From an uncultured Pelagibacteraceae bacterium (GTDB lineage: Bacteria; Pseudomonadota; Alphaproteobacteria; Pelagibacterales; Pelagibacteraceae), in contig CACPJP010000010.1 of the NCBI GenBank assembly GCA_902634325.1, positions 1 to 34,289 on the forward strand: a DNA stretch of 34,289 nt, written 5' to 3'. The stretch's first letter is position 1. Every line of letters starts with the position of its first letter. The position numbers and the translations under genes were made by a program. This document shows positions 5,336-28,730 of the stretch, piece by piece. The notes below the pieces were generated by a model. It saw only the letters and a program-made list of their open reading frames with translations, had not been told where the DNA came from and made no database searches.

Positions 5336-5419
5336 GCGGTCGTGCTGAAATTGGTAGACAGGCACGCTTGAGGGGCGTGTGGGTTTCCCGTGAGAGTTCG
5401 AGTCTCTCCGACCGCACCA
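5336..5419 (+). tRNA. tRNA-Leu(GAG)
   Basis: A complete class II tRNA is visible: acceptor arms GCGGTCG and CGACCGC, discriminator A, an encoded CCA end, D-arm with TTGGTAGA, anticodon stem CACGC/GCGTG around loop TTGAGGG giving anticodon GAG (reads CUC and CUU), a long variable arm (TGGGTTTCCC region) typical of leucine tRNAs, and T-arm GAGAG-TTCGAGT-CTCTC. Its 3' 28 bases plus the next three bases recur exactly 613 bp downstream, so the gene seems to serve as an attachment site for integrating DNA. The antisense reading frame over this gene is not a real protein. Confidence 0.96.
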
Positions 5420-5422
5420 AAA
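5392..5422 (+). repeat. att-like direct repeat, left copy (inside tRNA-Leu)
   Basis: This copy covers the T-arm, 3' acceptor strand, CCA and the first As after the tRNA. It is identical over 31 bases to 6005-6035. The identity stops exactly at 5423, where the downstream spacers of the two copies diverge. Confidence 0.75.
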
Positions 5423-5449
5423 ATTAAGATAAATCAATAATTTTTTTTC

Positions 5450-5537
5450 TAAAAAACTAATATTTTTGGATCCAATTGCGCTCAAATTGCGCTCAAAAAA
5501 ACGAGCGCAAAAGTGAGCGCAAATAGTATATGATTTT
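5450..5537 (+). repeat. Octamer-rich leader repeat, copy A (upstream of HNH gene)
   Basis: This 88-bp stretch is repeated at 6061-6137 with a single 11-bp difference (one extra TTGCGCTC unit here). It contains TTGCGCTC at 5476 and 5487 (11 bp apart) and the complement GAGCGCAA at 5503 and 5515 (12 bp apart), so each pair is spaced by about one helical turn and the two pairs face each other. The inner pair forms a perfect hairpin, 8-bp stem and 8-nt loop (5487-5510). The AT-rich end (TAGTATATGAT) directly precedes the ATG of the HNH gene and could hold its -10 box. A promoter with protein-binding sites is the simplest reading; integrase arm sites or iterons are alternatives. Confidence 0.6.
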
Positions 5538-5540
5538 TGT

Positions 5541-5912
5541 ATGAAAAAAATTATAGCAAAAGGTTTTGATATATCTAAACAAAATTTAAAGGGAATGACT
5601 CCTGATCAATATATAACTTTAATGGAGCACCAAAAGTTTTTGTGTCCTTTAAGCGGTAAAAAATTTGAATACTCATCTAAAGATAAAAAATTCATTGATG
5701 TTGAAGGAAGACAAACTAGGATAATAGCACCTCCCGTTGACCATGATCATGCTACAGGATTTATAAGAGGAATTTTAAGTGAGAAGCTAAATTTACTTTT
5801 AGATCAATGGGAAAAACAAACTTACGGTAAATTATCAAAACCAAAAGAATTAACTGATTATCAAAATGATCCTCCTGCTTATAAATGTATTGGAAAAGTT
5901 AAATATAAATAA
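5541..5912 (+). CDS. Endonuclease VII-like HNH nuclease, degenerate zinc site
   Basis: The 123-aa product resembles the recombination endonuclease VII type of HNH (beta-beta-alpha-metal) nucleases common in phages. The active-site segment VDHDHATGFIRGIL (residues 66-79) matches the family pattern DHDHxTGxxRGLL, with the two catalytic-type His at 68 and 70, and the C-terminal part (PKELTDYQNDPPA) fits the typical tail. The usual zinc-binding cysteines are mostly lost: the first pair is reduced to Cys35 (KFLCPLSGKKF), and the second CxxC is replaced by SEKLN. It may therefore be a zinc-independent variant or a decaying gene. The ATG follows the octamer-rich leader with no visible Shine-Dalgarno, so leaderless or weak initiation is possible. 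It lies inside the tRNA-bounded element, supporting a mobile origin. Confidence 0.6.
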   Translation: MKKIIAKGFDISKQNLKGMTPDQYITLMEHQKFLCPLSGKKFEYSSKDKKFIDVEGRQTRIIAPPVDHDHATGFIRGILSEKLNLLLDQWEKQTYGKLSKPKELTDYQNDPPAYKCIGKVKYK

Positions 5913-5922
5913 AAGAAATGAA

Positions 5923-5953
5923 TTCCAATTGCGCTCAGATTGCGCTCACTTTT
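5923..5953 (+). repeat. Additional TTGCGCTC pair at the distal end of the element
   Basis: TTGCGCTC occurs at 5929 and 5940, again 11 bp apart and preceded by the same TCCAA as in the leader copies, followed by ACTTTT, which matches the complement of the other half of the leader. It lies just after the HNH stop, so the 613-bp unit has octamer arrays at both ends. Confidence 0.5.
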
Positions 5954-6004
5954 ATTCAAACGGAGAATTTGTTAAGCTCTAGGCGGTTGTTTTGTTTCAG
6001 GATG

Positions 6005-6035
6005 GAGAGTTCGAGTCTCTCCGACCGCACCAAAA
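6005..6035 (+). repeat. att-like direct repeat, right copy (tRNA-Leu tail without tRNA)
   Basis: Exact 31-bp copy of the tRNA-Leu 3' end. The 5' part of a tRNA is absent upstream (5953-6004 does not fold into or align with the tRNA), so this is a tail fragment, the expected distal attachment scar of an insertion. Confidence 0.75.
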
Positions 6036-6060
6036 CGTAAAGAAAACGAGAGTAAATTTT

Positions 6061-6137
6061 TAAAAAACTAATATTTTTGGATCCAATTGCGCTCAAAAAA
6101 ACGAGCGCAAAAGTGAGCGCAAATAGTATATGATTTT
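6061..6137 (+). repeat. Octamer-rich leader repeat, copy B
   Basis: Second copy of the leader, outside the right att-like repeat: TTGCGCTC at 6087 and GAGCGCAA at 6103 and 6115, with the same 8-bp/8-nt hairpin at 6087-6110. Its position behind a tRNA tail at nearly the same distance as in copy A (25 versus 27 bp spacer of unrelated sequence) suggests it is the left end of an earlier element inserted at the same site. Confidence 0.6.
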
Positions 6138-6190
6138 GATATGGAAATATTTGAAGAGTTTGAAAATAAAGATAAATGAAACCAGTGAGT
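6138..6190. other. Short stretch after leader copy B; only a 12-codon frame
   Basis: Directly after the second leader a frame begins ATG at 6141 and ends at TGA 6177-6179 (MEIFEEFENKDK). In copy A the same position starts the HNH gene. This may be the stub of a cargo gene lost from the older element, or chance. The 3' end of the opposite-strand helicase gene follows at 6191. Confidence 0.25.
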
Positions 6191-8152
6191 TCAATTAATT
6201 TTCCAAAGCTTATTTGAAAACAGATTTGAATTATTTTGATAAAATTTTTTATACCTTTCAGAAAGGTTAATTATAAATATTTTTTCTCTAACCCTAGTTA
6301 AAGATGTATACATTTCATAATCATAAGTCTGTATTTGGTCATTAACTATATTTTTATCCCTTGTAGTTAAGATTATAATATTTCTTCTTTCCCAACCTTT
6401 AAAACTTTTAATTGTACACATTTTTAATTTGTTTGTTCTTACAGTGAATAATTTTTTCTTTTCTTTTTCTTTTACCATGACTCTTGGATCTTTAGATTTT
6501 CCTTTAAAAACATCTGAAATTTTAATTTTATTTTTAAACTTATTTAAAATATTTTCTTTTAAGTTTATTCCTTCACTGTGTTCTGATACTAAAATTGTTG
6601 TATCGGAAAATTCATTTTTTTTTTCGCGATCTAAATAATTTAGAACTTCTATAATTTTATCATTACCTTCAACGATATTACTTACATTTACCCATTCAGC
6701 TTCTGGATCAGGATCAAATGGAAGAGAATGCTGTTTATCTTTATTTTCTTCTATATAATATGGGGTTTCAGCATCAGTGTTTGTTTCTCCCAGAAAACTT
6801 TTAGAAAAGCTATTTGCTATTTTAATATGAAGATTATTTAATCTATATCCGATATTCAATTGACCCCATTTACCACCACCAACACCCTTTAATTCAGTTT
6901 TTTTTCTTCCGTAAACATTTTGTTTAGAGTCTATAGCAATTAGAGCTTCTTTATTATTATTTAAAAAAGATCTTACGAACTTAAACCATTCTTCTTTAAA
7001 GTCTTGACCCTCATCTATAAGGATTGCATCATAATTATTTGTTTCATTAGGATATTGCTCTTTATCTCTTATATATTTAAGTATCGTTTCTTTTTCTACA
7101 TCCTCATCATTTTCATCAAAATGATAAGGCATGCCTCTTTCGTCAGCATATAATTTGATAAACTCATGAAAATGAACAATATCAATGTTAGGTGGTAAAT
7201 CTTTAGATTTATGAATATTTATAATTTCAGACTCTATATAATTTTTTAATGTTATATTAAAACAAACAATTAAAACCTGTTTACCTAAGCTTGCTAATTT
7301 AGCGGCTCTCCAAGATATAACTTTGGTCTTTCCACTACCTGCTACACCAGATAATTTTTGAATTACCCTAGGTTCGGGTATTGTATAACGTCTTTGTTTT
7401 AAATCTAAATCTTTTTCTGAAGCAATAATTTTGCTTTCAACAAAATGTAAGGGATCAGATATCCAATTTTTAAATTTATTGGTCCAATCAAATTTACTTT
7501 GAATCTTATCTTTATTTAAAAGCAATGGAATTAAATTATGAAGAGGCGTTTTATCATTTAACATGTCTTTTGCAAAAATATTGCATCGATAAGTTTTAAG
7601 AAAATCTGGGTATCCTACGAATTCTTTCGCTTCAACTGTTGAATGTTCATTATGAAAATAGACACCACACTTTATCAGATTCAATTTATTAGTATTTTCG
7701 CTAATTTCTTCAATTATTTCTTTAATACCATCTCTCATTCTCCACATATAATCTTCGACTTGCTTAACAGGATTAATATTTTTTGATCTGCCTTTATTAT
7801 CTTTATAAAAAATATCTAAAAATTTTCCATTTCGAGTTTTTACTATTTCTTTTTTGAAGTTATTAAAATCTGAATAATCTTTTACTTCTATTATCATGAT
7901 TCCAAATTTCTTGTGTGCAATGACAATATCTGGTGTTTTTTTTGTCATATGTAGTCCCCATTTTTTTAATGTTGGCTTTGTATGTATCAACCATTCCTTA
8001 GGAAGTTTTCTGTCTAAAAAATTTGCTAAATGATACTCGCCTTCTGTAAAGTTATAATTGCCTTTTAATTCTTTTTTTTGATATTTTTGCAGGATTCCTT
8101 TAGGTAAAACTCTATCTGCGAGTGTCATAATTCTATCTAATTTAGTATACAT
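6191..8152 (-). CDS. NERD-domain superfamily 1 helicase/nuclease
   Basis: The 653-aa protein fuses an N-terminal NERD (nuclease-related) domain to a UvrD/PcrA-type helicase. NERD is seen as GEYHLANFLDRKLP (about residue 38), then PDIVIAHKKFGIMIIEVKDYS (about 80-100), with the D...ExK arrangement of PD-(D/E)xK nucleases. Walker A GVAGSGKTK lies near 267, Walker B AILIDEGQDF near 377, and the C-terminal motifs TIKSFKGWER and YTSLTRVREKIFI close the helicase. The ATG at 8152 was chosen over an upstream frame to 8248 because the extra 32 residues overlap the divergent gene and lack conservation-like character. It sits alone on the minus strand in the tRNA-associated accessory region. Proteins of this architecture occur in mobile and defence islands; a role in DNA defence or repair is inference. 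Confidence 0.8.
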   Translation of the reverse strand: MYTKLDRIMTLADRVLPKGILQKYQKKELKGNYNFTEGEYHLANFLDRKLPKEWLIHTKPTLKKWGLHMTKKTPDIVIAHKKFGIMIIEVKDYSDFNNFKKEIVKTRNGKFLDIFYKDNKGRSKNINPVKQVEDYMWRMRDGIKEIIEEISENTNKLNLIKCGVYFHNEHSTVEAKEFVGYPDFLKTYRCNIFAKDMLNDKTPLHNLIPLLLNKDKIQSKFDWTNKFKNWISDPLHFVESKIIASEKDLDLKQRRYTIPEPRVIQKLSGVAGSGKTKVISWRAAKLASLGKQVLIVCFNITLKNYIESEIINIHKSKDLPPNIDIVHFHEFIKLYADERGMPYHFDENDEDVEKETILKYIRDKEQYPNETNNYDAILIDEGQDFKEEWFKFVRSFLNNNKEALIAIDSKQNVYGRKKTELKGVGGGKWGQLNIGYRLNNLHIKIANSFSKSFLGETNTDAETPYYIEENKDKQHSLPFDPDPEAEWVNVSNIVEGNDKIIEVLNYLDREKKNEFSDTTILVSEHSEGINLKENILNKFKNKIKISDVFKGKSKDPRVMVKEKEKKKLFTVRTNKLKMCTIKSFKGWERRNIIILTTRDKNIVNDQIQTYDYEMYTSLTRVREKIFIINLSERYKKFYQNNSNLFSNKLWKIN

Positions 8153-8173
8153 ATTAACTAATTGTTTTAAAAT

Positions 8174-8189
8174 TTTTAACTTGTTAAAA
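8174..8189. promoter_or_regulatory. 16-bp palindrome in a divergent promoter gap
   Basis: TTTTAAC and its exact complement GTTAAAA flank TT within the 46-bp gap between the helicase start (8152) and the small + strand gene start (8199). A dyad in such a gap is operator-like, but the sequence is AT-rich, so chance is not excluded. It might also overlap the promoter elements of both genes. Confidence 0.35.
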
Positions 8190-8198
8190 TATAAAAAA

Positions 8199-8507
8199 AT
8201 GCTTGATAAAATTAAAAAAGGAGCACAGGTCTCAATAGATGTTGGCAAAAAAGCCGCTGAAGCTTCAATAGATGCTGGTATGAAAGCTAAAGATCAATCA
8301 GTAAAATATGGAAAAAAATTTATACGAAAGAAAGCCTTAGAAAGTATAAAAGAAAAACTTGAGTTTGCCCAAAAAAAAGAAACTGATTTTACCAAAGAAG
8401 AAATGAGAAACATGATAGCTCGTGAAGAAAAAAAGATTATTAAAAGTCTTGGAACAACGGGTGCCGTAACAACTATTTTAGCTCTTTTTGGAATTACAAA
8501 TATCTAA
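8199..8507 (+). CDS. Unrecognised small basic protein, repeat-like N-terminus
   Basis: The 102-aa product is not recognised. Its N-terminal half is an amphipathic, Lys/Ala-rich helix with a repeating pattern (ASIDxGxKAxxxS-like: VSIDVGKKAAEA, ASIDAGMKAKDQ), the middle is charged (LEFAQKKETDFTKEEM), and the end is a short hydrophobic stretch (TTGAVTTILALFGITNI) that could insert into or lie on a membrane. ATG 8199 is preferred over TTG 8181 because it leaves the palindromic gap free. The stop overlaps the next start (TAATG), beginning a chain of coupled small genes that reaches selO. Confidence 0.6.
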   Translation: MLDKIKKGAQVSIDVGKKAAEASIDAGMKAKDQSVKYGKKFIRKKALESIKEKLEFAQKKETDFTKEEMRNMIAREEKKIIKSLGTTGAVTTILALFGITNI

Positions 8508-8872
8508 TGTTTAAATTTTTAACAAAACAATTTTTGTATGGGCGTCTTTATCTATGGTTAAAAGAAAGAATAGGTGGAATATTATTTCTATTTATTGCTA
8601 TATTTTTAGTCATTTATTTTCATAACGAGTATTTAAATTATGTTGAATACAGAAGTAAATTTGAAGGAGGTTATATTGGTTTGTCTTTTATTATAAAAAA
8701 CACATTAATTCTTTTAATAGCCTCTGGTTATTTCTATTTTTATTTATTTTTAGACAAAGCAAGAGAATTAATTAAGAAAAATGAAGAAAAAAACAAAGAA
8801 GAAAAAAACAGCGAAATGGTTGATAGTTTAGATCAATTTTTACAAGACGATGAGATTGATAGAAAGAATTAA
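8507..8872 (+). CDS. Small membrane protein, two transmembrane segments
   Basis: The 121-aa product has two hydrophobic segments, about residues 24-42 (GGILFLFIAIFLVIYFH region) and 66-86 (NTLILLIASGYFYFYLF region), and a charged C-terminal tail rich in Lys, Asn and Glu that should be cytoplasmic. No family is recognised. Its ATG shares the last base of the preceding stop, so translation is probably coupled. The stop is immediately followed by a GTG that opens a 22-codon frame. Confidence 0.6.
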   Translation: MFKFLTKQFLYGRLYLWLKERIGGILFLFIAIFLVIYFHNEYLNYVEYRSKFEGGYIGLSFIIKNTLILLIASGYFYFYLFLDKARELIKKNEEKNKEEKNSEMVDSLDQFLQDDEIDRKN

Positions 8873-8941
8873 GTGCTTGAAACAATAATAATTATCGAAC
8901 TAGCAGGATTAGCCTACGCGCTGTATAATATGAATCAATGA
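8873..8941 (+). CDS. Possible 22-aa hydrophobic peptide
   Basis: GTG directly abuts the preceding TAA, and the TGA stop overlaps the next ATG (ATGA). The peptide (MLETIIIIELAGLAYALYNMNQ) is hydrophobic enough for a single membrane helix. The perfect packing between two genes is the only support; no Shine-Dalgarno of its own is visible. It may be a translated micro-gene or a coupling leader. Confidence 0.35.
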   Translation: MLETIIIIELAGLAYALYNMNQ

Positions 8942-9339
8942 ATAAAGTTCATTATTTAAACAGCCATATACAAAAATTCAGAGAAAATAAAAAAAAATTC
9001 AAAATAGATTTAAAAGATGTTGAGGGCCTTGCAGCAGGGTATGACAACATGGGTTCAGAAGATAAAAAAATAGTTAAAGTTTTCATGAAGTCTTTCAAAA
9101 ACAAAGAAGACTACAAGTCTTTTTTAAGCAAACTGCCTAAAAATATTTATCGTCCTGCTCTTCACTATTTAGTCACAGCATATTGGATAGCTTATGTTTG
9201 TTATTATTATAACGATAAATTTGCTGAAACCATGGGAGAATGTTTGGAAAGTATAGATGAAAATTTAGTTCTTTTAGACAGCATTCGTTTTTGCAAAAAA
9301 ACATACTATTATTTAAATCCTATTGAGACTATTAAATGA
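8938..9339 (+). CDS. Unrecognised 133-aa protein
   Basis: The product has a basic N-terminus (HIQKFRENKKKFKIDLKD), a helical middle and an aromatic-rich segment near residues 78-92 (ALHYLVTAYWIAYVCYYY) that could be a single membrane helix or a buried helix, followed by an acidic stretch (MGECLESIDENLVLL) and a short tail with Cys and several Tyr. No known family is recognised. It is part of the overlapping + strand gene chain; its ATG overlaps the stop of the preceding 22-codon frame. Confidence 0.6.
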   Translation: MNKVHYLNSHIQKFRENKKKFKIDLKDVEGLAAGYDNMGSEDKKIVKVFMKSFKNKEDYKSFLSKLPKNIYRPALHYLVTAYWIAYVCYYYNDKFAETMGECLESIDENLVLLDSIRFCKKTYYYLNPIETIK

Positions 9340-9372
9340 AAAAACTTTTAAGGATCGTGGTAGAATAAGAAT

Positions 9373-9438
9373 ATGCAGCATTTCTTTATTCCTATAATTG
9401 GTTTGATTATATTCATACTTATCTTGATGCTGGTCTGA
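9373..9438 (+). CDS. Possible 21-aa transmembrane micro-protein
   Basis: An ATG at 9373 opens a frame coding for MQHFFIPIIGLIIFILILMLV, almost entirely a membrane helix, ending TGA five bases before the next gene start at 9443. An additional 10-codon frame (9336-9368) overlaps the preceding stop. The length and composition resemble small integral membrane peptides, but nothing beyond position and hydrophobicity supports translation. Confidence 0.35.
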   Translation: MQHFFIPIIGLIIFILILMLV

Positions 9439-9442
9439 AAAA

Positions 9443-9625
9443 ATGAAAAATAAAATTTTAACAATTATTTCAGCGATAGTTATAATAACAATTCTTTTTT
9501 TAGCTCGAACCATATATAGTGAACATAATTTAAAAAAAGCTATTAGTGCATGTGTCTTGGGTAAAAAACAAACTCATAGTATAGAAGAAGCTAAACAAAT
9601 TTGCGCAGATAAGTTTAAAAAATGA
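9443..9625 (+). CDS. Small anchored protein with paired cysteines
   Basis: The 60-aa product has an N-terminal membrane anchor or signal (residues 5-22, ILTIISAIVIITILFLA) and a short soluble part with two Cys (ACVLGKKQTHSIEEAKQICADKF) spaced 16 residues apart on what look like two helices, which could form a periplasmic disulfide hairpin. No family is recognised. Its TGA overlaps the selO ATG (ATGA), so the two are likely coupled. Confidence 0.6.
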   Translation: MKNKILTIISAIVIITILFLARTIYSEHNLKKAISACVLGKKQTHSIEEAKQICADKFKK

Positions 9626-11079
9626 AAAAAATTGGTTGGCAATTTGATAACACTTACTCGAAATTGCCCAAAAACTTGTTATCAAAATTAAATCCAACAC
9701 CAGTAAAATCTCCAGAGGTTGTTCTTTTCAATCATTCTTTGTCGAAAGAAATTGGATTAGATTTTTCTGAAATAGATAACGAGAAATTAGCTTTAACTTT
9801 TTCAGGAAATCAATTACCTGATGGATCAGAGACAATTGCACAAGCTTATGCAGGGCATCAATTTGGGCATTTTACATTATTGGGAGATGGGCGAGCACTT
9901 GTTATTGGAGAACATGTCGATAAAAATAAAAAAAGATACGATATACAATTTAAAGGATCTGGTAAAACGCCATATTCAAGAAATGGTGACGGTAGAGCCG
10001 CGTTGGGTCCAATGCTTAGAGAATATATTGTAAGTGAGGCTATACATAATCTTAAAATTCCAACAACAAGAAGTTTAGCTGTTGTAAAAACTGGAGAAAA
10101 TGTAATTCGCGAAAAAAATTTAGAAGGGGCGGTATTAACTCGTATTGCCTCAAGTCACATTAGAATTGGAACTTTTCAGTATGCTTGTATATCTAAAGAT
10201 AAAAATGATTTAAAAGCTTTGTTTGATTACACTATTGAACGTCATTATCCTCATATTAGAAATTTTAAATTTCCTGCCATAGAGCTTTTGAATATCGTTA
10301 CAGAAAAACAGATTGATTTAATTATAGATTGGATGCGAGTTGGTTTTGTTCATGGGGTAATGAATACTGACAACGTAGCTATTTCAGGAGAAACAATTGA
10401 TTACGGACCTTGTGCTTTTATGGATACATATGATCCCAGAACTGTATTTAGTTCAATAGATTACTACGGTCGTTACGCTTTTTCTAATCAACCAAGTATT
10501 ATCAAATGGAATTTAGAAAAATTTGCAGAAGTTTTAATTCCTTTAATCGATACTGACAGCAATAGGTCAATAGAAATGGCCAAGGAGGTATTAAAAGATT
10601 TCGATACAAAATTTAAAAAAGGTTGGTTTAAAATGATGAGAAAAAAATTAGGTTTAAAAGGAGAAGAATCAAAAGATGAAAATTTAATTACAAAACTATT
10701 ATCATGGATGAAACAAAATAAAGCCGATTATACAAATACTTTTTGTTATTTAATGGATGATCTTATTCAAAAAAATAAGACTTTTGAAAATGAAGAATTT
10801 AATCATTGGAAACAACAATGGAAAAACCGTTCTAAGTTGTACGGTAATTCTCCAGAAAATTCATTACAAATAATGCATGAAGCAAACCCTTTAGTTATTC
10901 CAAGAAATCATTTGGTAGAAGGAGCATTAAATGTTGCTACAGAAAATAATGATTTAACAAAAGTTAAAGAGTTATTGAAAATTCTAAAAGATCCTTATAA
11001 AAATAAAACTAATATTGATTACTATCAATCCACTCCAATTCCTGGAAAAGAAAGATATAAAACCTATTGTGGTACCTAA
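9622..11079 (+). CDS. selO: Protein AMPylase SelO (YdiU/UPF0061 family)
   Basis: SelO is a pseudokinase-fold enzyme that transfers AMP from ATP to Ser/Thr/Tyr of redox proteins. The 485-aa length is usual. Family motifs are present in order: QAYAGHQFGHFTLLGDGRA (about 74-92), QFKGSGKTPYSRNGDGRAALG with the nucleotide-binding Lys (109-129), VLTRIASSHIRIGTF (171-185), HGVMNTDNVAISGETIDYGP with the metal-binding Asn and Asp (244-263), and a C-terminal ERYKTYCGT. The penultimate-region Cys (residue 483) takes the place of the selenocysteine of eukaryotic SelO and is coded by an ordinary TGT. It ends the chain of small overlapping genes starting at 8199; no terminator stronger than a weak hairpin follows. 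Confidence 0.93.
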   Translation: MKKIGWQFDNTYSKLPKNLLSKLNPTPVKSPEVVLFNHSLSKEIGLDFSEIDNEKLALTFSGNQLPDGSETIAQAYAGHQFGHFTLLGDGRALVIGEHVDKNKKRYDIQFKGSGKTPYSRNGDGRAALGPMLREYIVSEAIHNLKIPTTRSLAVVKTGENVIREKNLEGAVLTRIASSHIRIGTFQYACISKDKNDLKALFDYTIERHYPHIRNFKFPAIELLNIVTEKQIDLIIDWMRVGFVHGVMNTDNVAISGETIDYGPCAFMDTYDPRTVFSSIDYYGRYAFSNQPSIIKWNLEKFAEVLIPLIDTDSNRSIEMAKEVLKDFDTKFKKGWFKMMRKKLGLKGEESKDENLITKLLSWMKQNKADYTNTFCYLMDDLIQKNKTFENEEFNHWKQQWKNRSKLYGNSPENSLQIMHEANPLVIPRNHLVEGALNVATENNDLTKVKELLKILKDPYKNKTNIDYYQSTPIPGKERYKTYCGT

Positions 11080-17882: not shown

Positions 17883-20270
17883 GTGAGTCAATCTGAATTG
17901 CATACTTTTGTCACACCTAGTATAGTTATTAAGCATATGGATAAAATTTTCACTAGTTTGGACATACGTGATCCAGGTCTTAGAACGTTACCACCAGGAG
18001 TTGAAAGATATTTTGTTGAAGGCGGAGGTTTGTCAGTTTTAGAAATTTTACCAGAAGATAAGTTAGAAATTGTTAATGACGAAGGTAAACAAACCTGTGA
18101 AGTTATAGCTTTTAATTCTAAAGGTAAATGTGACCTGTCGATTTTAAATTTAAAAGAAAACGCTGATGCTAGTTTTTCAAAAAAAACAATTTCACAAGAT
18201 GAAAAAATTTCAAAATTATTTAAACGTAAAAACATAGATCTCAATAAAGCAAAATCATCAATAATATTTGATAAAGATTGTCCCGTTGGTGAAAAAATAA
18301 CCTTAGAGTCAAAAGATAAATGTACAGTAATGATAGCAGCTCCTGGTGAAGCTATGAATGTACATAATCAAAATCCACCAACAGATCTTACTATTTTCTT
18401 AAATAAATCTAAATTTGAAGACAAAGAAGAACAATTTGTTTTACCCGATCCTCTCGGCGACCCTTCTTATGAAAAATTAATTAAAAGACGTACAGTTGAA
18501 GCTTATGAAGTAAAAAAAGGAGAATACATTCAAATTATAGATACCGCTGGAAGACAGTGTTCAGATTTTTTGGCTTTTGATAAAGCAAAATTAGATAAAA
18601 GAATTGAAAGCATAATTGATTCTACAGGGACTCGTACATTTATGGGTTCTGCTTATCCTGGTCCTGGCTTGTTTTCTAAGTTTCTTGATGCATACCATGA
18701 CCCAATGGTAGAGGTTATTCGAGATACCGTTGGTAGACATGATACTTTTAATTACGCATGTACAGCAAAATACTATGAGGATCTAGGTTACTTTGGCCAC
18801 ATCAATTGTTCAGATAATTTCAATAAAGCTTTAAAAAAATATGAGGTAAAGCCAAGAAAGGGCTGGACTGCTATTAATCTTTTTTTTAATACAAATATTA
18901 ATCAACTAAACGTTGCGTCTTTCGATGAACCATGGTCAAGACCGGGAGATTATGTGTTATTTAGAGCAGCAAAAGATTTAGTTTGTCTTTCCTCAGCTTG
19001 TCCCTGTGATGTTGATCCAGCAAATGGATGGAATCCAACCGACATATTTGTTAGAACTTATCCTAAAGAACAAAAATACTCGAGAGCTATAGCGTTTAGA
19101 ATGAAAGAAGACTCAAAACCTAAGTTGACCAAAGAAACTGGATTTCACAAGAAAACATCCAAACTTACTAGAAATTTTATTGATTACAATGGTTACTGGC
19201 TAGCTAACAATTATACAAACTACGGTACTATTAATGAATACACAGCCTGTAGAGAAAAAGCTATTGCTATTGATCTTTCTCCATTAAGAAAATTTGAAAT
19301 TGTGGGTCCGGACTCTGAAAATTTAATGCAGTATGCACTTACTCGTAATGTAAAAAAACTTTCAATAGGACAAGTAAGTTATTCAGCCATGTGTTACGAA
19401 AACGGATGTATGATTGATGATGGAACAATTTTTCGTTTAGGCAAAGATAATTTTCGATGGATTGGCGGACAAGAGTATGGCGGCACATGGTTAAGAGAAT
19501 TAGCCAAAAAGAAAAAATACAAAGTTTGGATAAAATCTTCGACAGATCAAATTCATAATATTTCGGTTCAAGGTCCAAATAGCAGAAAGATTTTAGAAAA
19601 ATTTGTTTGGACAGCCCCTGCACAACCAAAATTAAGTGAGCTTCAGTGGTTTAGATTTGCTATAGCCAGAATTGACGATCATATAGGAACTCCAATTATA
19701 GTATCTAGAACAGGATACACAGGTGAATTAGGATTTGAATTATGGTGCCATCCTAAAGACGCTCCTAAAGTTTGGGACAAAGTTTGGGAACATGGAAAAG
19801 ATTTAGGTATAACACCAATGGGTCTAGAAGGTTTAGACATGGTAAGAATTGAAGCTGGACTTATTTTTTATGGATATGAATTTAATGATCAAGTAGATCC
19901 CTTCGAAGCAGGAATTGGGTTTGCTGTACCACTAAAAACAAAAGAAGATGACTTTTGTGGTAAGGATGCACTGAAAAAAAGAAAAGAATCTCCACAGAAA
20001 AAACTAGTTGGTTTGGAATTAATAGGAAAAGAGCAAGCTGTTAATAGCGACGGAGTACACGTAGGAAGAGCCACCGTAGGAGTAATAACAAGTGGAATGA
20101 TATCCCCTGTGCTAAATAAGAACATTGCTCTTTGTAGAATGGATGTTAAATATTGTGATATAGGAACAGAAGTTGAGGTAGGTAAAATTGACGGTCATCA
20201 AAAAAGAATTGGAGCAAAAGTTGTAAAGTTTCCTTTTTATGATCCAGAAAAATTAAGGGTTAAATCATAA
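17883..20270 (+). CDS. tdm: Trimethylamine N-oxide demethylase (TMAO aldolase)
   Basis: Tdm splits TMAO into dimethylamine and formaldehyde; the known enzyme joins a metal-dependent DUF1989-type N-terminal part to a GcvT-like tetrahydrofolate-binding C-terminal part that can capture formaldehyde. Both are visible in this 795-aa protein: the DUF1989-type region with LVCLSSACPCDVDPANGWNPT (Cys373 and Cys375, likely metal ligands) and GRQCSDFLAFD near residue 226, and from about 430 the GcvT fold (SRTGYTGELGFELW, GLEGLDMVRIEAG, DPFEAGIGFAV). A further divergent domain occupies residues 1-150. The start is GTG at 17883; ATG at 17937 is an alternative that shortens it by 18 residues. No Shine-Dalgarno is evident. 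One base separates it from the next gene. The fusion architecture plus the tmo neighbours makes this call strong. Confidence 0.9.
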   Translation: MSQSELHTFVTPSIVIKHMDKIFTSLDIRDPGLRTLPPGVERYFVEGGGLSVLEILPEDKLEIVNDEGKQTCEVIAFNSKGKCDLSILNLKENADASFSKKTISQDEKISKLFKRKNIDLNKAKSSIIFDKDCPVGEKITLESKDKCTVMIAAPGEAMNVHNQNPPTDLTIFLNKSKFEDKEEQFVLPDPLGDPSYEKLIKRRTVEAYEVKKGEYIQIIDTAGRQCSDFLAFDKAKLDKRIESIIDSTGTRTFMGSAYPGPGLFSKFLDAYHDPMVEVIRDTVGRHDTFNYACTAKYYEDLGYFGHINCSDNFNKALKKYEVKPRKGWTAINLFFNTNINQLNVASFDEPWSRPGDYVLFRAAKDLVCLSSACPCDVDPANGWNPTDIFVRTYPKEQKYSRAIAFRMKEDSKPKLTKETGFHKKTSKLTRNFIDYNGYWLANNYTNYGTINEYTACREKAIAIDLSPLRKFEIVGPDSENLMQYALTRNVKKLSIGQVSYSAMCYENGCMIDDGTIFRLGKDNFRWIGGQEYGGTWLRELAKKKKYKVWIKSSTDQIHNISVQGPNSRKILEKFVWTAPAQPKLSELQWFRFAIARIDDHIGTPIIVSRTGYTGELGFELWCHPKDAPKVWDKVWEHGKDLGITPMGLEGLDMVRIEAGLIFYGYEFNDQVDPFEAGIGFAVPLKTKEDDFCGKDALKKRKESPQKKLVGLELIGKEQAVNSDGVHVGRATVGVITSGMISPVLNKNIALCRMDVKYCDIGTEVEVGKIDGHQKRIGAKVVKFPFYDPEKLRVKS

Positions 20271-20271
20271 T

Positions 20272-21618
20272 ATGGCATTTCCTAAAAAAGCAAGATTTGT
20301 AGTTATTGGAGCAGGCATGCATGGACTGAGTACTGCTTGGCATTTAGCACAAAAAATTAAGAAAAAAAATGGCAACGGCTCAAACAACGATATAGTAGTT
20401 ATCGACAAAGGTGGAATAGCCTCAGGTGCGAGCGGTGTTGCTTGTGGTGTAGTTAGAAATAATTATTTTCAACCAGCTATGAGAGAACTGATGATGCACA
20501 GTGTTAAAATTTGGGAAAGTGATCCAAAAAACTTTAGCTATCATCCAGTTGGTTATATGCAAATAAGCCCCGAGAGTATGCACAAAGATGTTGCAAGTAT
20601 CTATAAACAACAAAAAGATATTGGTTATGAATCTACATTTATTGAGGGAAAAAAAGATTCAAGTAAATATATGAAAGATATGTTTCATGATTGGCAAGCC
20701 AAGGGTATTACTTCTGTACTACATGAAAAAAGAGGAGGGTATGCAAATAACACTGCCTCTATTTATGCATTGGCAAAAAAAGCAGAAAGTTTTGGTGTTA
20801 GAATAATAACTGGAACCGAAGTTACAGGTTTTAAAAGAGGAAGTAATAGCAAAGCTGTAACAGGCGTTGTGACCGCAAAAGGAACTATCGATTGTGAACA
20901 AGTAATTGTAGGTGCTGGTCCATGGGTAAAAAGAATATGGGACAGGCTTGAACTTCCTAAAAAAATTTCAATCAAAGATGAAAAAGGCAAAATACACAAT
21001 GATTATCCAATGTGGATATACTGGATGTTAACTGAAGGAGTATTGGGTGTTGATCCTAATCTGCAAAAAACTAATGATGGCAAAATGCCACCGGTAATCC
21101 ATGTAGATAGTGATGCGCACTTATATTCTGATGTCGATGGATCTTTAATAACCGATAAAATGTGGGGCATATATTACAAACCAGATTTTAATTTTAAAGG
21201 AGTCCAAGGAGGATCTGCTCCTTATAAAATAATTAGGCCAGTTGATGAAGTAAAAGTAGACCCTTATGGACCAGATTCTCCAGAGTATCAAACGACAGAT
21301 GAATTTGCTCATATGTGGTGCTCTGCTTTGGCTCATTGTCAAAAAAGATTTAAAGGTAAAATTAAATTTTATCACAAAGGTCCGTCTGGAGGACTTGGAT
21401 GTTTCACACCAGATTCTTTCCCTATATTTGATAGATTTTGTGAGAACGTTTATATAATTGCTGACTCTAACCATGGCTATAAAATGATTGGAGTTGGAGA
21501 TTTAGTTTCTGACGAGCTTTTAGGCAAAGAAAGTTCACTTCTTAAACCATTTAGATACAATCGATACGCGAAAGGTCAATTACACCCTGTTTCTAGTAGC
21601 CCTTTTCCTTGGAGCTAA
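20272..21618 (+). CDS. FAD-dependent oxidoreductase of DAO family (candidate secondary-amine oxidising enzyme)
   Basis: The 448-aa protein is a D-amino-acid-oxidase-fold flavoprotein related to sarcosine oxidase beta and dimethylglycine dehydrogenases. The dinucleotide-binding VVIGAGMHGLSTAWHLA sits at residues 11-27, a second FAD-contact segment GASGVACGVVRNNYFQPAMREL near 49-70, and the C-terminal SNHGYKMIGVGDLVSDEL closes the fold. Such enzymes oxidise N-methyl groups of secondary and tertiary amines. The gene begins one base after tdm, whose product is dimethylamine, and precedes genes for monomethylamine use, so conversion of dimethylamine to methylamine is an attractive but untested role. 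Alternatives are sarcosine or N-methylated amino acid oxidation. Confidence 0.8.
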   Translation: MAFPKKARFVVIGAGMHGLSTAWHLAQKIKKKNGNGSNNDIVVIDKGGIASGASGVACGVVRNNYFQPAMRELMMHSVKIWESDPKNFSYHPVGYMQISPESMHKDVASIYKQQKDIGYESTFIEGKKDSSKYMKDMFHDWQAKGITSVLHEKRGGYANNTASIYALAKKAESFGVRIITGTEVTGFKRGSNSKAVTGVVTAKGTIDCEQVIVGAGPWVKRIWDRLELPKKISIKDEKGKIHNDYPMWIYWMLTEGVLGVDPNLQKTNDGKMPPVIHVDSDAHLYSDVDGSLITDKMWGIYYKPDFNFKGVQGGSAPYKIIRPVDEVKVDPYGPDSPEYQTTDEFAHMWCSALAHCQKRFKGKIKFYHKGPSGGLGCFTPDSFPIFDRFCENVYIIADSNHGYKMIGVGDLVSDELLGKESSLLKPFRYNRYAKGQLHPVSSSPFPWS

Positions 21619-21689
21619 ATCTAGACGAGTATTTATTTTTCAGCTAACATATTTCAAATTTTATTAATCTTTGGGGGGAGGGATTAGTC

Positions 21690-23159
21690 ATGACGGATCT
21701 AGAAAAGCACGTTAACCAACCAGGACGTGACAAATTAGTCAAAAAAGTTAGAGAAAAAATTAACGAATTAGGAATTACATACATTTATTACCAATTTATA
21801 TCTGTAACAGGACGTGTTGTTGGTAAAGGAATTCCCGCAGACCATTGGGAAAGGACCGCAGAAAAAGGTTTTCAATTAGTTTATGGATCTACTGCCAACT
21901 TATTTGTAGATAGACACAAAAATTATATCGGTTACGGCCCTGAAGCTATGGAACTTGTTGGTATACCTGACCCTGAAACTTTCTGTCAGTTACCTTGGGA
22001 TAAAAGAGTTGGAAGAGTTTTTGTTACATGTTTTAGAAACAGAGAAGAAAGAGAAAATCCAGGAGGACATTTAACATCTGACTGTCGAGGAAATCTCAGA
22101 ATATTTATGGATGAATTTCAGAAAAAACATGGATTAGAATTGAGAGTTGGAACTGAACCTGAAATGATGTGGTTGACAAAAAATCCTGACGGAACTCCTA
22201 CTGGATCAGGTTTTTCTAAACCATACTGTTATCACATTGATCAATTTGAATCATTGAGACCTGTGTTTATGAAAGTAATTGAATACGCTTCAGCCATGGG
22301 TTTAGATATGATCCAAGGTGACCATGAAGATGCTCCGGGACAATTAGAATTAAACTGGACATACGATAATGTTTTAAGGAACGCTGATAGACTTTCTACT
22401 TACAGACAAATTTGTGCTCAAGTAGCAAGGGAACATAATTTAATAGCATGCTTTATGACAAAACCATTTATGGGTGTATCTGCAAGTGGTTGCCATACAA
22501 ACATGTCTTTGTGGAAAGGTGGAAAAGTTGTAATAAACAAATTAGGTAATAAAAAATTACCTGGAGTAGAGGAAGTGTTTGGTTATGTGCAAGGGGGAAC
22601 AAATACTTTTATGCCTGATACTAAAGATATGCAGCTACCAGGTAAAATTGGTTTACAGTCCATTGCTGGAATAATGGAACACTTACCAGCGTTAACTGCT
22701 TTAGGATCTTCAACAGTTAATTCTTACAGAAGACTTTGGGATCAAGGTTTCTGGGCTCCAGTTTATGCTGATTGGGGATATCAAAACAGAACTTGCGGTC
22801 TAAGAGTATCAGCTCCTGGAAGATTTGAGTATAGATCAGTTGACTCTATGCATAATCCATATCTTTTAGGTGCAGCTTTATTAAAAGCGTGTGATCATGG
22901 TATTTCAAAAAAACTAACACCATCTAAACCTGAATCTAGAAGCATGTATGAAGCCAAGAAAGCTGGTAAAGATGTTAAAAAACTTCCATTAAGCCTAGGA
23001 GAAGCTCTAGATAGATTAGCTGAAGACGAAGTTATTAAATCATCAATGCCAGATGAAATGTATAAAGTTTTTCATTGGTATAAAAATGACGAATGGGAAA
23101 AATTCTTAGGTGCTACAACTCAATGGGATCTTGATACCTATTTGGATTGTTTACCATAG
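21690..23159 (+). CDS. Glutamine synthetase-like ligase (GlnT type)
   Basis: The 489-aa protein belongs to the glutamine synthetase superfamily (gamma-glutamyl-amine ligases). Visible landmarks are the metal-binding GTEPEMMWL, GDHEDAPGQLELNW, the SASGCHTNMSLW segment, NSYRRLWD and PGRFEYRSVDSMHNPYLL. It heads the operon glnT-like-mgsA-mgsB-mgsC, an order also known in rhizobia as glnT next to glxBCD. A very strong GGGGGGAGGG Shine-Dalgarno precedes the ATG. It is only distantly similar to the GmaS at 28731 and has an extra N-terminal segment. It could make gamma-glutamylmethylamide, gamma-glutamyl-dimethylamide or another amide, or supply glutamine to the amidotransferase encoded next; the sequence does not decide. 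Confidence 0.82.
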   Translation: MTDLEKHVNQPGRDKLVKKVREKINELGITYIYYQFISVTGRVVGKGIPADHWERTAEKGFQLVYGSTANLFVDRHKNYIGYGPEAMELVGIPDPETFCQLPWDKRVGRVFVTCFRNREERENPGGHLTSDCRGNLRIFMDEFQKKHGLELRVGTEPEMMWLTKNPDGTPTGSGFSKPYCYHIDQFESLRPVFMKVIEYASAMGLDMIQGDHEDAPGQLELNWTYDNVLRNADRLSTYRQICAQVAREHNLIACFMTKPFMGVSASGCHTNMSLWKGGKVVINKLGNKKLPGVEEVFGYVQGGTNTFMPDTKDMQLPGKIGLQSIAGIMEHLPALTALGSSTVNSYRRLWDQGFWAPVYADWGYQNRTCGLRVSAPGRFEYRSVDSMHNPYLLGAALLKACDHGISKKLTPSKPESRSMYEAKKAGKDVKKLPLSLGEALDRLAEDEVIKSSMPDEMYKVFHWYKNDEWEKFLGATTQWDLDTYLDCLP

Positions 23160-23179
23160 TCTTAAGAGGAAAATAAATT

Positions 23180-24124
23180 ATGTGTGGAATAGCAGGACTA
23201 ATTCATAGAGGAAAATCTTCAGATGTAGGAAAAGAACTACAAGATATGCTTCAAGCATTAAAGCATAGAGGTCCGGATTCTACAGGATATGCATTATATG
23301 GCGAAGGTAATAACCAAGGAGATTACATAATGCGTTTTAAGGTTGGAGAAAACGTTGCTGAGGGAAGTTCTGCAGTCAAAGAAGATAAATCTGTATATGA
23401 CCAAAGAAGAAAACAAGTAGATCAACATATTAGAGATCTTGGGGGAGACATTGTTAACGATCAACAGTTAACACCTTACTCATTTAGATATGTCATTAAA
23501 TACGACAAGGACTTGATGGAATTTTCAAAAAAAATTGAAAGTGTTGAAATGGTTGAAATACTATCTATTGGAAAATCATTAGAACTTATAAAAGATCTCG
23601 GCGATGCGAAAGTGGTATCAAAAAGATATGGACTTGATAAAGTTAAAGGAACTCATGGTATAGGACATGCTAGGATGGCTACAGAGTCTGGTGTGGATAT
23701 ACGTTCAGCGCACCCTTTTTGGGGGTATCCTTTCAGCGATGTATCTGTAGTCCATAATGGGCAATTAACAAATTATTGGAACAATAGAAGAGTACTAGAA
23801 AATAAAGGCATGCGATTTATGTCAGAATGCGATTCTGAATTGATTGCTGTTTTTCTTGCAGAAAAAATGAGAAAAGGCGCATCGCTAGAAGAAGGAATGA
23901 AAGAATCTCTATCAGGCCTTGATGGAGTTTTTACTTACTTTGTTGCGACAAAAGACTCACTAGGTATGGCTAAAGATACAATGGCTGCAAAACCTTTAGT
24001 ATTATATGAGTCGGATGATTTAGTGGCCATGGGTTCAGAAGAAATTGCAATTAGATCTATATTGCCGCAAGAAATAGACACCTATGATCCATTTGATGGC
24101 GAGGTAAAAGTATGGCAAATTTAA
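23180..24124 (+). CDS. mgsA: N-methylglutamate synthase subunit A (class II glutamine amidotransferase)
   Basis: The 314-aa product starts MCGIAGLIHRG, where Cys2 becomes the N-terminal nucleophile after Met removal, and has the glutamine-site segments LKHRGPDSTGY, GIGHARMATES and VVHNGQLTNYW typical of Ntn amidotransferases of the GltB type. In MgsABC it works with the GxGxG subunit and the FMN subunit to make N-methylglutamate from glutamate and methylamine (or from gamma-glutamylmethylamide). An AGAGGAAA Shine-Dalgarno lies before the ATG, 20 bp after the ligase gene. The 3' end overlaps mgsB by 13 bases. It is also equivalent to GlxB of rhizobia. Confidence 0.88.
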   Translation: MCGIAGLIHRGKSSDVGKELQDMLQALKHRGPDSTGYALYGEGNNQGDYIMRFKVGENVAEGSSAVKEDKSVYDQRRKQVDQHIRDLGGDIVNDQQLTPYSFRYVIKYDKDLMEFSKKIESVEMVEILSIGKSLELIKDLGDAKVVSKRYGLDKVKGTHGIGHARMATESGVDIRSAHPFWGYPFSDVSVVHNGQLTNYWNNRRVLENKGMRFMSECDSELIAVFLAEKMRKGASLEEGMKESLSGLDGVFTYFVATKDSLGMAKDTMAAKPLVLYESDDLVAMGSEEIAIRSILPQEIDTYDPFDGEVKVWQI

Positions 24125-24966
24125 AAACATCTAAAAAAAAAACAAAAGCCCAATCAATGGGTATGCACACAGAAACTCTAACTGGAAAAACTCAGCAGAA
24201 ATTTTTTAATCCGGACGAAGCAGAAAATTTCTTTTATTGGGGAACCCACGACGTAGATTTTAATAAAAGAACAGAAATTGACGTGAAAGATATGGACTGT
24301 AATGAAGCCAATAAAAAAATAGATTCTTTGATGAGTGAAGGTTATGGAACGATTGTAATTAAAAATCCTCAAGGAAAGCATAGTTTGGGTGTTGGAATAT
24401 TAAATAAACTTAATTTGATTTTTGAGGGAAGTTTAGGTTATTTCGGAATTGGTTCAATAGATGGACCTATGGTCAGAGTTAATGGGCGTGTCGGATGGTC
24501 GTGTGCTGAAAATATGATGGCCGGCAAAGTAGTAATAGAAAAAAATGCTGGATCATGCTTCGGTGCTGCTATTAGGGGTGGAGATTTAATTTGTAAAGGA
24601 AGCGTGGGCGCAAGAACTGGCATTGATCAGAAAGGTGGTTCAATAATTGTTGGTGGAGATGCTGGTGCATTTACAGGTTTTATGATGCAAAGAGGCAGAA
24701 TAGTTATTTTGGGTGATGTTGGTATCAACCTTGGTGACTCAATGTATGATGGAACTATATATGTAGGTGGAAAAATTGGTTCTTTTGGTAGTGATGCTGT
24801 AAAAGCTCCTATGACAAAAAATGACACAGACTGGCTAAAAAGAAAACTTAAAGTAGCGGAAATTGGTAGTGATTTTGATATTTCAAAAATGACAAAAATA
24901 GTAGCTGGTAAAAAACTTTGGAACTATGACGCTTTGGAACCAACAGAAAAAAAAGGAGCTATATAA
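24112..24966 (+). CDS. mgsB: N-methylglutamate synthase subunit B (GltB GxGxG-domain protein)
   Basis: The 284-aa product corresponds to the C-terminal structural domain of glutamate synthase: a right-handed beta helix with glycine-rich turns (VRVNGRVGWSCAENMMAGKVVIEKNAG, GGDLICKGSVGARTGIDQKGGSIIVGGDAGAFTGFMMQRGRIVILGDVG; residues 120-230). It has no catalytic residues of its own and probably frames the other two subunits. The start overlaps mgsA by 13 bases and its stop shares a base with mgsC, so the three subunits are translationally coupled. The first 20 residues are Lys-rich. Confidence 0.88.
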   Translation: MANLKTSKKKTKAQSMGMHTETLTGKTQQKFFNPDEAENFFYWGTHDVDFNKRTEIDVKDMDCNEANKKIDSLMSEGYGTIVIKNPQGKHSLGVGILNKLNLIFEGSLGYFGIGSIDGPMVRVNGRVGWSCAENMMAGKVVIEKNAGSCFGAAIRGGDLICKGSVGARTGIDQKGGSIIVGGDAGAFTGFMMQRGRIVILGDVGINLGDSMYDGTIYVGGKIGSFGSDAVKAPMTKNDTDWLKRKLKVAEIGSDFDISKMTKIVAGKKLWNYDALEPTEKKGAI

Positions 24967-26345
24967 TGGCAAAGAAAAAAGTTAATGACAAAACAAATGG
25001 AAAAAGTCAGTTTGCAAAAAGAAACAAAAGTTTATTAGGTTATAATTCAATTTTTACACCTGAAGTTATTGACGACATACATATTAAAGCTCAATTAGGA
25101 AGATACAGAATGCGTGGAATGGCATTAATGAAAAAAATTCCAACATTCGATGATTTGGTTTTTTTACCAGGAACGCTAACAAGATTTGTAATTGAAGGTT
25201 ACAGAGAAAAATGTGAAACAAAAACTATAATAGGACCAAGATGTGAGAATCCTATTGAATTAGATATTCCTGTTTATATTACTGGAATGAGTTTCGGTGC
25301 TCTTTCTTATGAAGCAAAAACTGCGCTTGCAAGAGGAGCTACTATGGCGGGTTCAGCAACTTGTTCTGGCGAAGGTGGAATGATACCCGATGAAAGAAGA
25401 TATTCGGAAAAATGGTTTTATCAGTGTATTCAATCAAGATATGGATTTAATCCTCATCACGCTCAGTTAGCTGATGGGATAGAAGTGTTTATTGGACAAG
25501 GCCAAAAAGTTGGTATGGGTGGACATTTAATGGGTCAAAAAGTTACTGACCAAGTTGCAGAAATGAGATCTTTGCCGGCTGGTATTGATCAAAGATCACC
25601 GGCTCGACACCCCGATTGGTTAGGTCCTGATGATTTAGCATTGAAAGTTCAAGAACTAAGAGAATTAACTAAAAATAAAGTACCAATACAATTAAAACTT
25701 GGAGCAGCAAAAGTTTATGATGATGTGCGTATGGCCGCTAAGTGTGATCCAGATTCTATCTATTTAGATGGGATGGAAGGTTCAACCGGTGCAGGACCAC
25801 ATATTGCTGCAGCTAATACTGGAATACCTGGAATAGCAGCAATTAGAGAAGCTAGAAGAGCTCTTGATGACGTAGGCAAAACAGGGAAAGTAACTCTTAT
25901 TTATGCTGGCGGTGTTAGAGATGGCGCTGATATGGCAAAAGCTCTTGCATTAGGAGCAGATGCAATCGCAATAGGTACAGGTGCCATGATTGCTCTAAAC
26001 TGTAATAAAGAAATTCCTGAATCTAATTTTGAAAAAGAAATGGGAGTTCCCGCAGGTCATTGTTATCATTGTCATACAGGTCGTTGCCCTGTTGGTGTTG
26101 CGACTCAAGATCCGAAATTAAGAAAAAGGTTAAATCCTGATGATGCCGCACTAAGAGTTTACAATTATTTACATACAATGACTTTGGAAGCTCAATTGTT
26201 AGCAAGAGCATGTGGAAAAACAAATATACATTCGTTAGAACCAGAAGATATGGCTGCATTAACTATGGAAGCTTCTGCGCTTGCGAAAGTTCCTTTATCA
26301 GGAACAAATCATACTGTAGGAGTTGACGACTTCCATAAAATTTAA
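24966..26345 (+). CDS. mgsC: N-methylglutamate synthase subunit C (glutamate synthase-like FMN subunit)
   Basis: The 459-aa product is the FMN-binding alpha/beta barrel of the glutamate synthase family (GltB central domain). It shows ITGMSFGALSYEAKTALARGA, CSGEGGMIPDER, IQLKLGAAKVYDDV, the FMN-site LDGMEGSTGAGPHIAA, YAGGVRDGADMAKALALGADAIAIGTGAM, and the iron-sulfur cysteines in GHCYHCHTGRCPVGVATQDP (about 360-380). In MgsABC this subunit performs the reductive step that transfers the methylamine nitrogen to a 2-oxoglutarate-derived carbon. Equivalent to GlxD of rhizobia. It is followed by a small gene of unknown function 10 bp downstream. Confidence 0.9.
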   Translation: MAKKKVNDKTNGKSQFAKRNKSLLGYNSIFTPEVIDDIHIKAQLGRYRMRGMALMKKIPTFDDLVFLPGTLTRFVIEGYREKCETKTIIGPRCENPIELDIPVYITGMSFGALSYEAKTALARGATMAGSATCSGEGGMIPDERRYSEKWFYQCIQSRYGFNPHHAQLADGIEVFIGQGQKVGMGGHLMGQKVTDQVAEMRSLPAGIDQRSPARHPDWLGPDDLALKVQELRELTKNKVPIQLKLGAAKVYDDVRMAAKCDPDSIYLDGMEGSTGAGPHIAAANTGIPGIAAIREARRALDDVGKTGKVTLIYAGGVRDGADMAKALALGADAIAIGTGAMIALNCNKEIPESNFEKEMGVPAGHCYHCHTGRCPVGVATQDPKLRKRLNPDDAALRVYNYLHTMTLEAQLLARACGKTNIHSLEPEDMAALTMEASALAKVPLSGTNHTVGVDDFHKI

Positions 26346-26355
26346 AGGATCAGAT

Positions 26356-26757: not shown

Positions 26758-26796
26758 TATTTACACAATCCTTGGTTGAAGCAAAAAACTAAAAAC

Positions 26797-26812
26797 ATTG
26801 TTATACAACAAT
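26797..26812. promoter_or_regulatory. Inverted repeat in the amt upstream region
   Basis: ATTGTT and AACAAT flank ATAC 61 bp before the amt ATG, inside a 115-bp intergenic gap. A plausible -35 (TTGAAG, 26775) and -10 (TGTTAT, 26799) overlap it with 18-bp spacing. It could be an operator over the amt promoter; the arms are short and AT-rich, so this is tentative. Nothing else is evident in 26758-26872. Confidence 0.3.
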
Positions 26813-26872
26813 TCTGCATGGTTGTACTGCTTGTCGCACCCAATACAATATTAAACAACAAGAGGAGGGAAT

Positions 26873-28252: not shown

Positions 28253-28268
28253 AAAGGAGAAATGACTT

Positions 28269-28514: not shown

Positions 28515-28533
28515 CTTGAAATATTAAAAAATT

Positions 28534-28567: not shown

Positions 28568-28574
28568 AGAAGTT

Positions 28575-28718: not shown

Positions 28719-28730
28719 ATAATAAATTTT

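Follow-up and report, generated by a model that had tools for sequence, protein, structure and literature searches.

Putative integrase-less elements with conserved ends stacked at a tRNA-Leu(GAG) gene in SAR11

Introduction

Cassettes that are bounded by direct repeats of a tRNA tail and that build "additive" flexible islands have been reported for aquatic bacteria that are likewise streamlined, Ca. Actinomarinales (PMC7771536) and Ca. Methylopumilus (PMC10872708). These reports describe cassette cargo of mostly unknown function and islands as small as 330 bp with one coding sequence in Ca. Methylopumilus (PMC10872708), as well as transfer between genera in Ca. Actinomarinales (PMC7771536). 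Here, we analyze a locus behind the tRNA-Leu(GAG) gene of a SAR11 bacterium, in which the tail of the tRNA gene is repeated and two units with similar leaders (units 1 and 2) follow one another. The DNA under study, hereafter the window, is a whole stretch of 34,289 nucleotides from an uncultured Pelagibacteraceae bacterium (GenBank assembly GCA_902634325.1, contig CACPJP010000010.1, positions 1 to 34,289 of the forward strand). Among the cells of the ocean, SAR11 bacteria form one of the most abundant groups; their genomes are very small, and few mobile elements are known from them. We consider it probable (roughly 0.75) that the locus arose by serial site-specific insertion of at least two integrative elements, one stacked on the other, into the 3' end of the tRNA gene, the elements being integrase-less and either mobilized in trans or remnants with working ends.

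The additive cassettes resemble the SAR11 elements in their repeated insertions, but the accessible text of those reports describes no conserved ends, arm-type sites, or source of recombinase, whereas the SAR11 ends are defined, conserved across genomes, and placed at a fixed distance from the core. Cis-mobilizable elements (CIMEs) related to ICESt1 (PMC5704250) likewise have left and right attachment sites (attL and attR) around cargo, no integrase, and tandem accretion at the same site. They are, however, derivatives of integrative and conjugative elements (ICEs) or integrative and mobilizable elements (IMEs) and are moved in cis by an accreted element, whereas the SAR11 units showed no ICE, IME, or conjugation gene, and the smallest of them holds a single gene in 613 bp. 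Tycheposons, as described in PMC10872708, also bring flexible cargo to tRNA genes of streamlined marine bacteria; their size is given there as 4-200 kb, and those that the paper reports contain a tyrosine recombinase, in contrast to the SAR11 elements of 0.6-5 kb, where we found no integrase in any complete element examined. Temperate pelagiphages of the HTVC019P type (PMC6811365) share with the SAR11 elements their SAR11 hosts and a tRNA-Leu gene as bacterial attachment site (attB). They differ in having their own integrase and another target, tRNA-Leu(TAG), which HTVC019P-group III phages use next to a trigger-factor gene (PMC6811365). SAR11 elements at that tRNA also have repeats beside the attachment site, but of a different sequence (GATACGATT). 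Finally, clusters of attC sites lacking integron integrases (CALINs) and miniature inverted-repeat transposable elements (MITEs) also consist of recombination sites only and depend on an enzyme in trans (PMC11389934), but neither attC sites nor an integron integrase were noted here, and the core is a tRNA T-arm.

Elements of this general kind are known, as additive cassettes and as CIMEs. In the open-access literature, we found no description of SAR11 elements that freely exchange their cargo between conserved ends with arm sites and that can be as short as 613 bp with one gene. An earlier reading of the window from its sequence (the original prediction) had recognized no described family with this layout, which holds for the conserved arm-bearing ends but not for additive tRNA cassettes (PMC7771536, PMC10872708) or CIMEs (PMC5704250), both of which have been published.

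tRNA-Leu(GAG) as an insertion site

ARAGORN identified an intact tRNA-Leu(GAG) gene on the forward strand (5336-5419), the putative attB target. Its last 28 bases followed by AAA form a 31-bp tail (5392-5422) that recurs exactly at 6005-6035, i.e., at the spacing of 613 bp that the original prediction had given. The 24-mer core of this tail has two matches in the window, compared with a mean of 0 in dinucleotide shuffles, even with three mismatches allowed. Both copies lie on the forward strand. The first, which contains the T-arm and T-loop (GAGAG-TTCGAGT-CTCTC), would constitute the left attachment site of unit 1, and the second would be both the right attachment site of unit 1 and the left one of unit 2.

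We compared the locus with 31 genomes of the same genus and 169 genomes of another genus (g4), together 200 SAR11 genomes of two genera, all of which are incomplete draft assemblies and several of which stem from single cells. In most of the 31 same-genus genomes, a nadA-like gene is linked to tRNA-Leu(GAG), and the DNA after the tRNA varies. One genome (G015) has 1.13 kb between two tail copies, and the DNA on its right is found immediately behind the tRNA in G056 and G148; another (G086) has 3.05 kb between the copies, and its right flank follows the tRNA in G041, G133, G136, G125, and G091. Given these filled and empty pairs, tRNA-Leu(GAG) is an insertion site at which a copy of the tail is left behind. 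The same tail segment is also duplicated around the inserts of G244, G242, G330, and G228. An assembly chimera is possible in one genome but unlikely in several that share the same junctions.

Unit 1 consists of 613 bp with a single gene for an Endonuclease VII (EndoVII)/HNH protein, the 31-bp core at both ends, and arm-like sites. Behind each tail copy, after AT-rich spacers that are not clearly alike, lies the same leader (5446-5545 and 6057-6150), as originally predicted. The two leaders are 98% identical in a 41-bp block and 92% identical in a 71-bp block, and the difference that otherwise distinguishes them is one 11-bp unit, ATTGCGCTCAA, missing from the second copy. They are built from 9-bp TTGCGCTCA-type sites, of which the window contains 14 at no more than one mismatch (4.3 ± 2.0 expected). 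In unit 1, TTGCGCTCA stands at 5476 and 5487 on the forward strand, and CGAGCGCAA (5502, one change) and TGAGCGCAA (5514) stand on the reverse strand; the P'-arm-like left end to which they belong (5423-5535, forward strand) terminates in the promoter-like AAATAGTATATGAT ahead of the cargo ATG. A perfect inverted repeat, TTGCGCTC-AAAAAAAC-GAGCGCAA, is also found in the leader. A direct pair of TTGCGCTCA sites spaced 11 bp apart (5929 and 5940) precedes the second tail, within a P-arm-like right end (5913-6004, forward strand), so unit 1 has matching sites at both ends. Neither the build-up of the leader from these sites nor the second pair had been recognized in the original prediction.

Counted from the G of GTTCGAG in the core, the right-end sites of unit 1 are located at -80 and -69 and its left-end sites at +80 and +91. 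Short repeats that flank a core on either side at set distances, where the core itself comes from a tRNA T-arm, are the layout of a phage attachment site (attP) for a tyrosine integrase of the lambda type. Judged from its sequence, unit 1 has the layout of an attL and an attR with candidate integrase arm-type sites, and it corresponds in this respect to the cargo flanked by attL and attR that characterizes CIMEs; unit 2 retains a left end only.

Conserved ends around exchanged cargo

When the tail plus leader was searched against 397 genomes of the family, alignments spanned the tail and ~75 bp of the leader in G099, G013, G244, G242, G206, and G204 and were shorter in G330 and G196. The search of the 169 g4 genomes added G400 and G228, and left ends like that of unit 1 occur in nine other genomes. 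Among the strong matches listed for the 397 genomes, no leader copy lay away from a tRNA tail. Wide occurrence of the leader without tRNA tails and a lack of empty sites had both been named in advance as arguments against recent insertion; the leader turned up beside this tRNA only, and relatives with empty sites exist.

Three g4 genomes harbor complete elements at the same tRNA (G244, 2.3 kb; G242, 5.1 kb; G330, 3.1 kb). Each consists of a left end of ~100 bp, different cargo, a near-identical right end of ~85 bp, a second tail, and flanking DNA, the flank of G244 and G330 being the same as the DNA immediately behind the tRNA in g4 genomes with an empty site. A tblastx comparison among the inserts detected consistent similarity at the ends only: between genomes, the ends of the g4 elements are mostly 88-99% conserved and the cargo is largely unrelated. 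The exchangeable cargo anticipated by the original prediction is thereby borne out in another genus.

The left ends carry repeated ~9-bp TTGYGCTCA sites 78-118 bp inside the core, with the main site at +89 to +91 in unit 1 and its relatives, and the right end of unit 1 has the same sites 69-80 bp outside the core. A right-end site occurs at -69 in G244, G242, G330, and the window, at -68 in G206 (an element divided between two contigs, each of which carries one end), and at -70 in G228; in these five genomes other than the window, it reads TTGTGCTC followed by A or G. The right end of the window has little in common with the others besides these sites, and in shuffles of it, a site at -69 ± 1 arises with P = 0.0003. 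Repeated insertion at one attB of elements with a common left end, as originally envisaged, is well supported by the empty sites, the conserved ends around different cargo, and the restriction of the leader to this tRNA, except that the common end is not the left one alone, since a matching right end exists.

Unit 2 and the history of the locus

The left end of unit 2 (6036-6135, forward strand) contains TTGCGCTCA at 6087 on the forward strand and CGAGCGCAA (6102) and TGAGCGCAA (6114) on the reverse strand, i.e., one 11-bp site fewer than unit 1. Where the cargo starts in unit 1, unit 2 has a 12-codon open reading frame (6141-6179, forward strand) that is probably a remnant. The 24-mer core search found no third tRNA tail in the window behind unit 2, from which we infer that its right end was lost by deletion. 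The junction to the native flank is located at 9340-9363 (AATATGCAGCATTTC...). The flank from ~9364 onward directly follows the tRNA in G388 and G274 (contigs L102 and L104), and window positions 5420-9363 are therefore inserted DNA.

In the closest relative, G001 (98% identity over the stretch from nadA to the tRNA), 5441-9363 is absent, and 22 bp from the left end of unit 1 remain in front of the native flank of the window. This arrangement suggests, on sequence grounds, that G001 once carried the left end of unit 1 as well. In addition, the window and G400, which belongs to another genus, share their cargo and the region where it joins the native flank, but have left arms of different types. 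A simple history would be that an old insertion lost its right end and that one or two insertions of the TTGCGCTCA-arm type later took place at the tRNA, the order and number being our reconstruction. The recent insertion that had been proposed holds for unit 1 at most, as the right end of unit 2 has been lost.

A further variant was noticed in G077 (L043), where the tRNA is directly followed by AAATAGTATATGATTTTTTATG, the last part of the window leader, and a thermonuclease-like gene. Here, the arm sites seem to have been deleted and the promoter-like part and the cargo gene retained.

Searches for a recombinase

No integrase was found at tRNA-Leu(GAG) in the incomplete assemblies of the 200 SAR11 genomes. 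Pfam searches of the window open reading frames and of the G244, G242, and G330 cargo detected no integration or transfer genes, as is the case in CIMEs. With no integrase in the elements or at this tRNA, the recombinase would have to come in trans. Nor does the cargo contain an integrase or packaging or replication genes of its own that would define a phage satellite. The minimal satellite suggested by the original prediction finds no backing, since the searches turned up neither a packaging gene nor a helper phage, and phage relatives were found for the EndoVII-like cargo gene only.

As a positive control, integrase-bearing SAR11 elements at tRNA-Leu(TAG) were found to carry GATACGATT/ATGGATACA repeats at 9- to 12-bp spacing beside the attachment site. 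These repeats, observed in L188, L192, and L196 near tRNA-Leu(TAG), are candidate arm sites of which we found no description in the accessible parts of the literature. The g4 integrases other than Xer show no TTGYGCTCA clusters, and several of them adjoin tRNA-Leu(TAG), Leu(CAA), Val, or Pro; wherever the position of tRNA-Leu(GAG) is known, these integrases lie on other contigs and were rejected as neighbors.

Several candidate attP carriers were likewise discarded. The IMG/VR contigs that match 23-25 bp of the tail carry tRNA genes ending in it, which were complete wherever ARAGORN was run. More specifically, the viral contigs L007-L011 and L200-L214 hold tRNA genes, mostly tRNA-Leu, that end in ~24 bases matching the SAR11 tRNA-Leu tail or a variant of it. 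Among the matches listed for attP-like junction sequences against INPHARED, only tRNA-core matches occurred, and HTVC200P holds a whole tRNA-Leu with the anticodon TAA. The TTGCGCTCA pairs in viral contigs L004-L006 and the TTGTGCTCA pairs in L065-L068 occur in phage contigs that lack this tRNA tail and are apparently unrelated. In L065-L068, which are AT-rich, the TTGTGCTCA repeats are spaced 11 bp apart just upstream of a gene start and are possibly replication iterons.

Proposed mechanism and alternative explanations

Insertion at the tRNA with duplication of its tail, conservation of the ends, exchange of cargo, and absence of an integrase can be read directly from the genomes compared. 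To account for them, we propose that a lambda-type tyrosine integrase, provided in trans by a phage or some other element, would bind the TTGYGCTCA repeats as arm-type sites. Crossover would take place inside the T-loop (GAGAG-TTCGAGT-CTCTC), and AGTTCGAGTCTCTCCGACCGCACCA is the recombination core that we would expect in the attP of a helper. Each new arrival would recombine with the tRNA and displace older elements away from it; any gene between two such ends could travel, mobility may be continuing, and the right end of unit 2 would have been deleted later.

Several points weigh against this proposal. Integrase binding by the repeats is deduced from their geometry, the evidence consists of draft assemblies, and no excised circle or polymorphic read was observed. 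The inserts of G015 and G086 have no recognizable TTGYGCTCA arms. Neither IMG/VR and INPHARED nor the genomes of the two SAR11 genera searched yielded a helper integrase or attP. The genome from which the window derives has no PF00589 domain in its examined part, and it is only 61% complete.

The units might instead be CIMEs in the strict sense, i.e., decayed remnants of once autonomous prophages or islands in which attL and attR persist but the integrase and most other genes have been lost. By definition, CIMEs have lost integration and transfer genes and kept both attachment sites, their tandem accretion is known (PMC5704250), and unit 2 and G400 are both without right ends. We nevertheless regard this origin as unlikely: independent decay should leave fragments of integrase or phage genes and eroded ends, whereas no integrase was seen in unit 1, G244, G242, G330, G206, or G228, the six elements in which both ends or at least a clear right end can be recognized, and most of the g4 ends remain 88-99% conserved despite largely unrelated cargo. 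The opposite view, which we advance tentatively, is that SAR11 possesses a dedicated class of minimal cassettes, in which any gene or operon of 0.6-5 kb lies between two conserved attP-arm ends of ~100 bp, without a recombinase, and is inserted serially at tRNA-Leu(GAG) by the integrase of a phage or island acting in trans.

An explanation of the leader as the regulatory region of the cargo gene (an operator with a leaderless promoter, or an RNA hairpin) unrelated to integration would suit its perfect inverted repeat and the AT-rich, promoter-like stretch ahead of the ATG. We judge it improbable, as it is the distance to the tRNA core that is conserved in other genomes and not the inverted arrangement, and the same sites recur at a conserved distance between the cargo gene and the second tail. 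Moreover, Rfam yielded no convincing match in the leader, only weak look-alikes below the gathering score. No intrinsic terminator was found. The leader may still have a double role that includes a promoter. Scarcely credible, finally, is a tandem duplication of a segment comprising tail, leader, and cargo, with later replacement of the cargo and divergence of the spacer. It would account for tail and leader having the same order and nearly the same offsets in both units, but not for leaders that are 92-98% alike next to unrelated spacers and cargo, for arm sites at the right end of unit 1 that match unrelated elements in position, or for empty sites and single elements with similar ends in other genomes.

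If such a dedicated class of minimal cassettes exists, its members would be akin to integron cassettes, with a tRNA gene as the platform, and would provide a route of gene gain in a streamlined genome. The short conserved ends at one tRNA are a concrete signature with which the gain of defense and other accessory genes by SAR11 can be searched for. In addition, the predicted arm sites point to a helper integrase specific for TTGYGCTCA-type arms as the missing partner, which could be sought in metagenomes.

Cargo genes and neighboring DNA

In most elements, the cargo begins right behind the left arm and is directed away from the tRNA. The HNH nuclease that had been recognized in one unit is the cargo of unit 1, an Endonuclease VII-like protein of 123 amino acids (5541-5912, forward strand; PF02945, Endonuclease_7, E = 1.6e-6; phrog_423). 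Its homologues are viral proteins with 31-39% identity, in comparison with which the DHDHATGF..RG motif is retained and most of the zinc cysteines are replaced. The matches to solved structures were only spurious ones to repeat proteins and were set aside.

Behind the left end of unit 2, the reverse strand encodes a NERD nuclease with a UvrD-like helicase (6191-8248; PF08378/PF00580), a candidate defense protein that matches the PADLOC candidate C3a187 (NERD+UvrD) with E = 2.8e-57. No homologue was present in any of the loci compared, and it is thus a strain-specific candidate defense gene. Three small cargo genes follow on the forward strand (8199-8507, 8507-8872, and 8938-9339) and are also found in the leader-bearing insert of G400, with 87% DNA identity over window positions 8214-9438 and 82-93% identity of the small-gene proteins (tblastn).

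Elsewhere, the cargo comprises a large helicase in G242 with resemblance to models of the Mokosh, PDC-S37, and Hhe types, a PrsW protease and a homologue of ligand-gated channels in G330, a MORN protein in G244, and a methyltransferase in G015, and the right end of G228 is found around a DEAD-box helicase gene. Defense-like cargo is recurrent but not the rule. A homologue of pentameric ligand-gated ion channels, with Neur_chan_LBD and a membrane part, was observed at L114:2016-3200, in a tRNA-Leu insert of a SAR11 genome.

Beside the island, the window contains a SelO (YdiU)-like gene (9622-11079) that is absent from this position in G001 and present behind the insert of G077. Farther downstream (17883-33633), we recognized, from translations only, a catabolic cluster of the methylated-amine/sarcosine type with GcvT-like, sarcosine-oxidase-like subunit, glutamine-synthetase-like, glutamate-synthase-like, and ammonium transporter genes.
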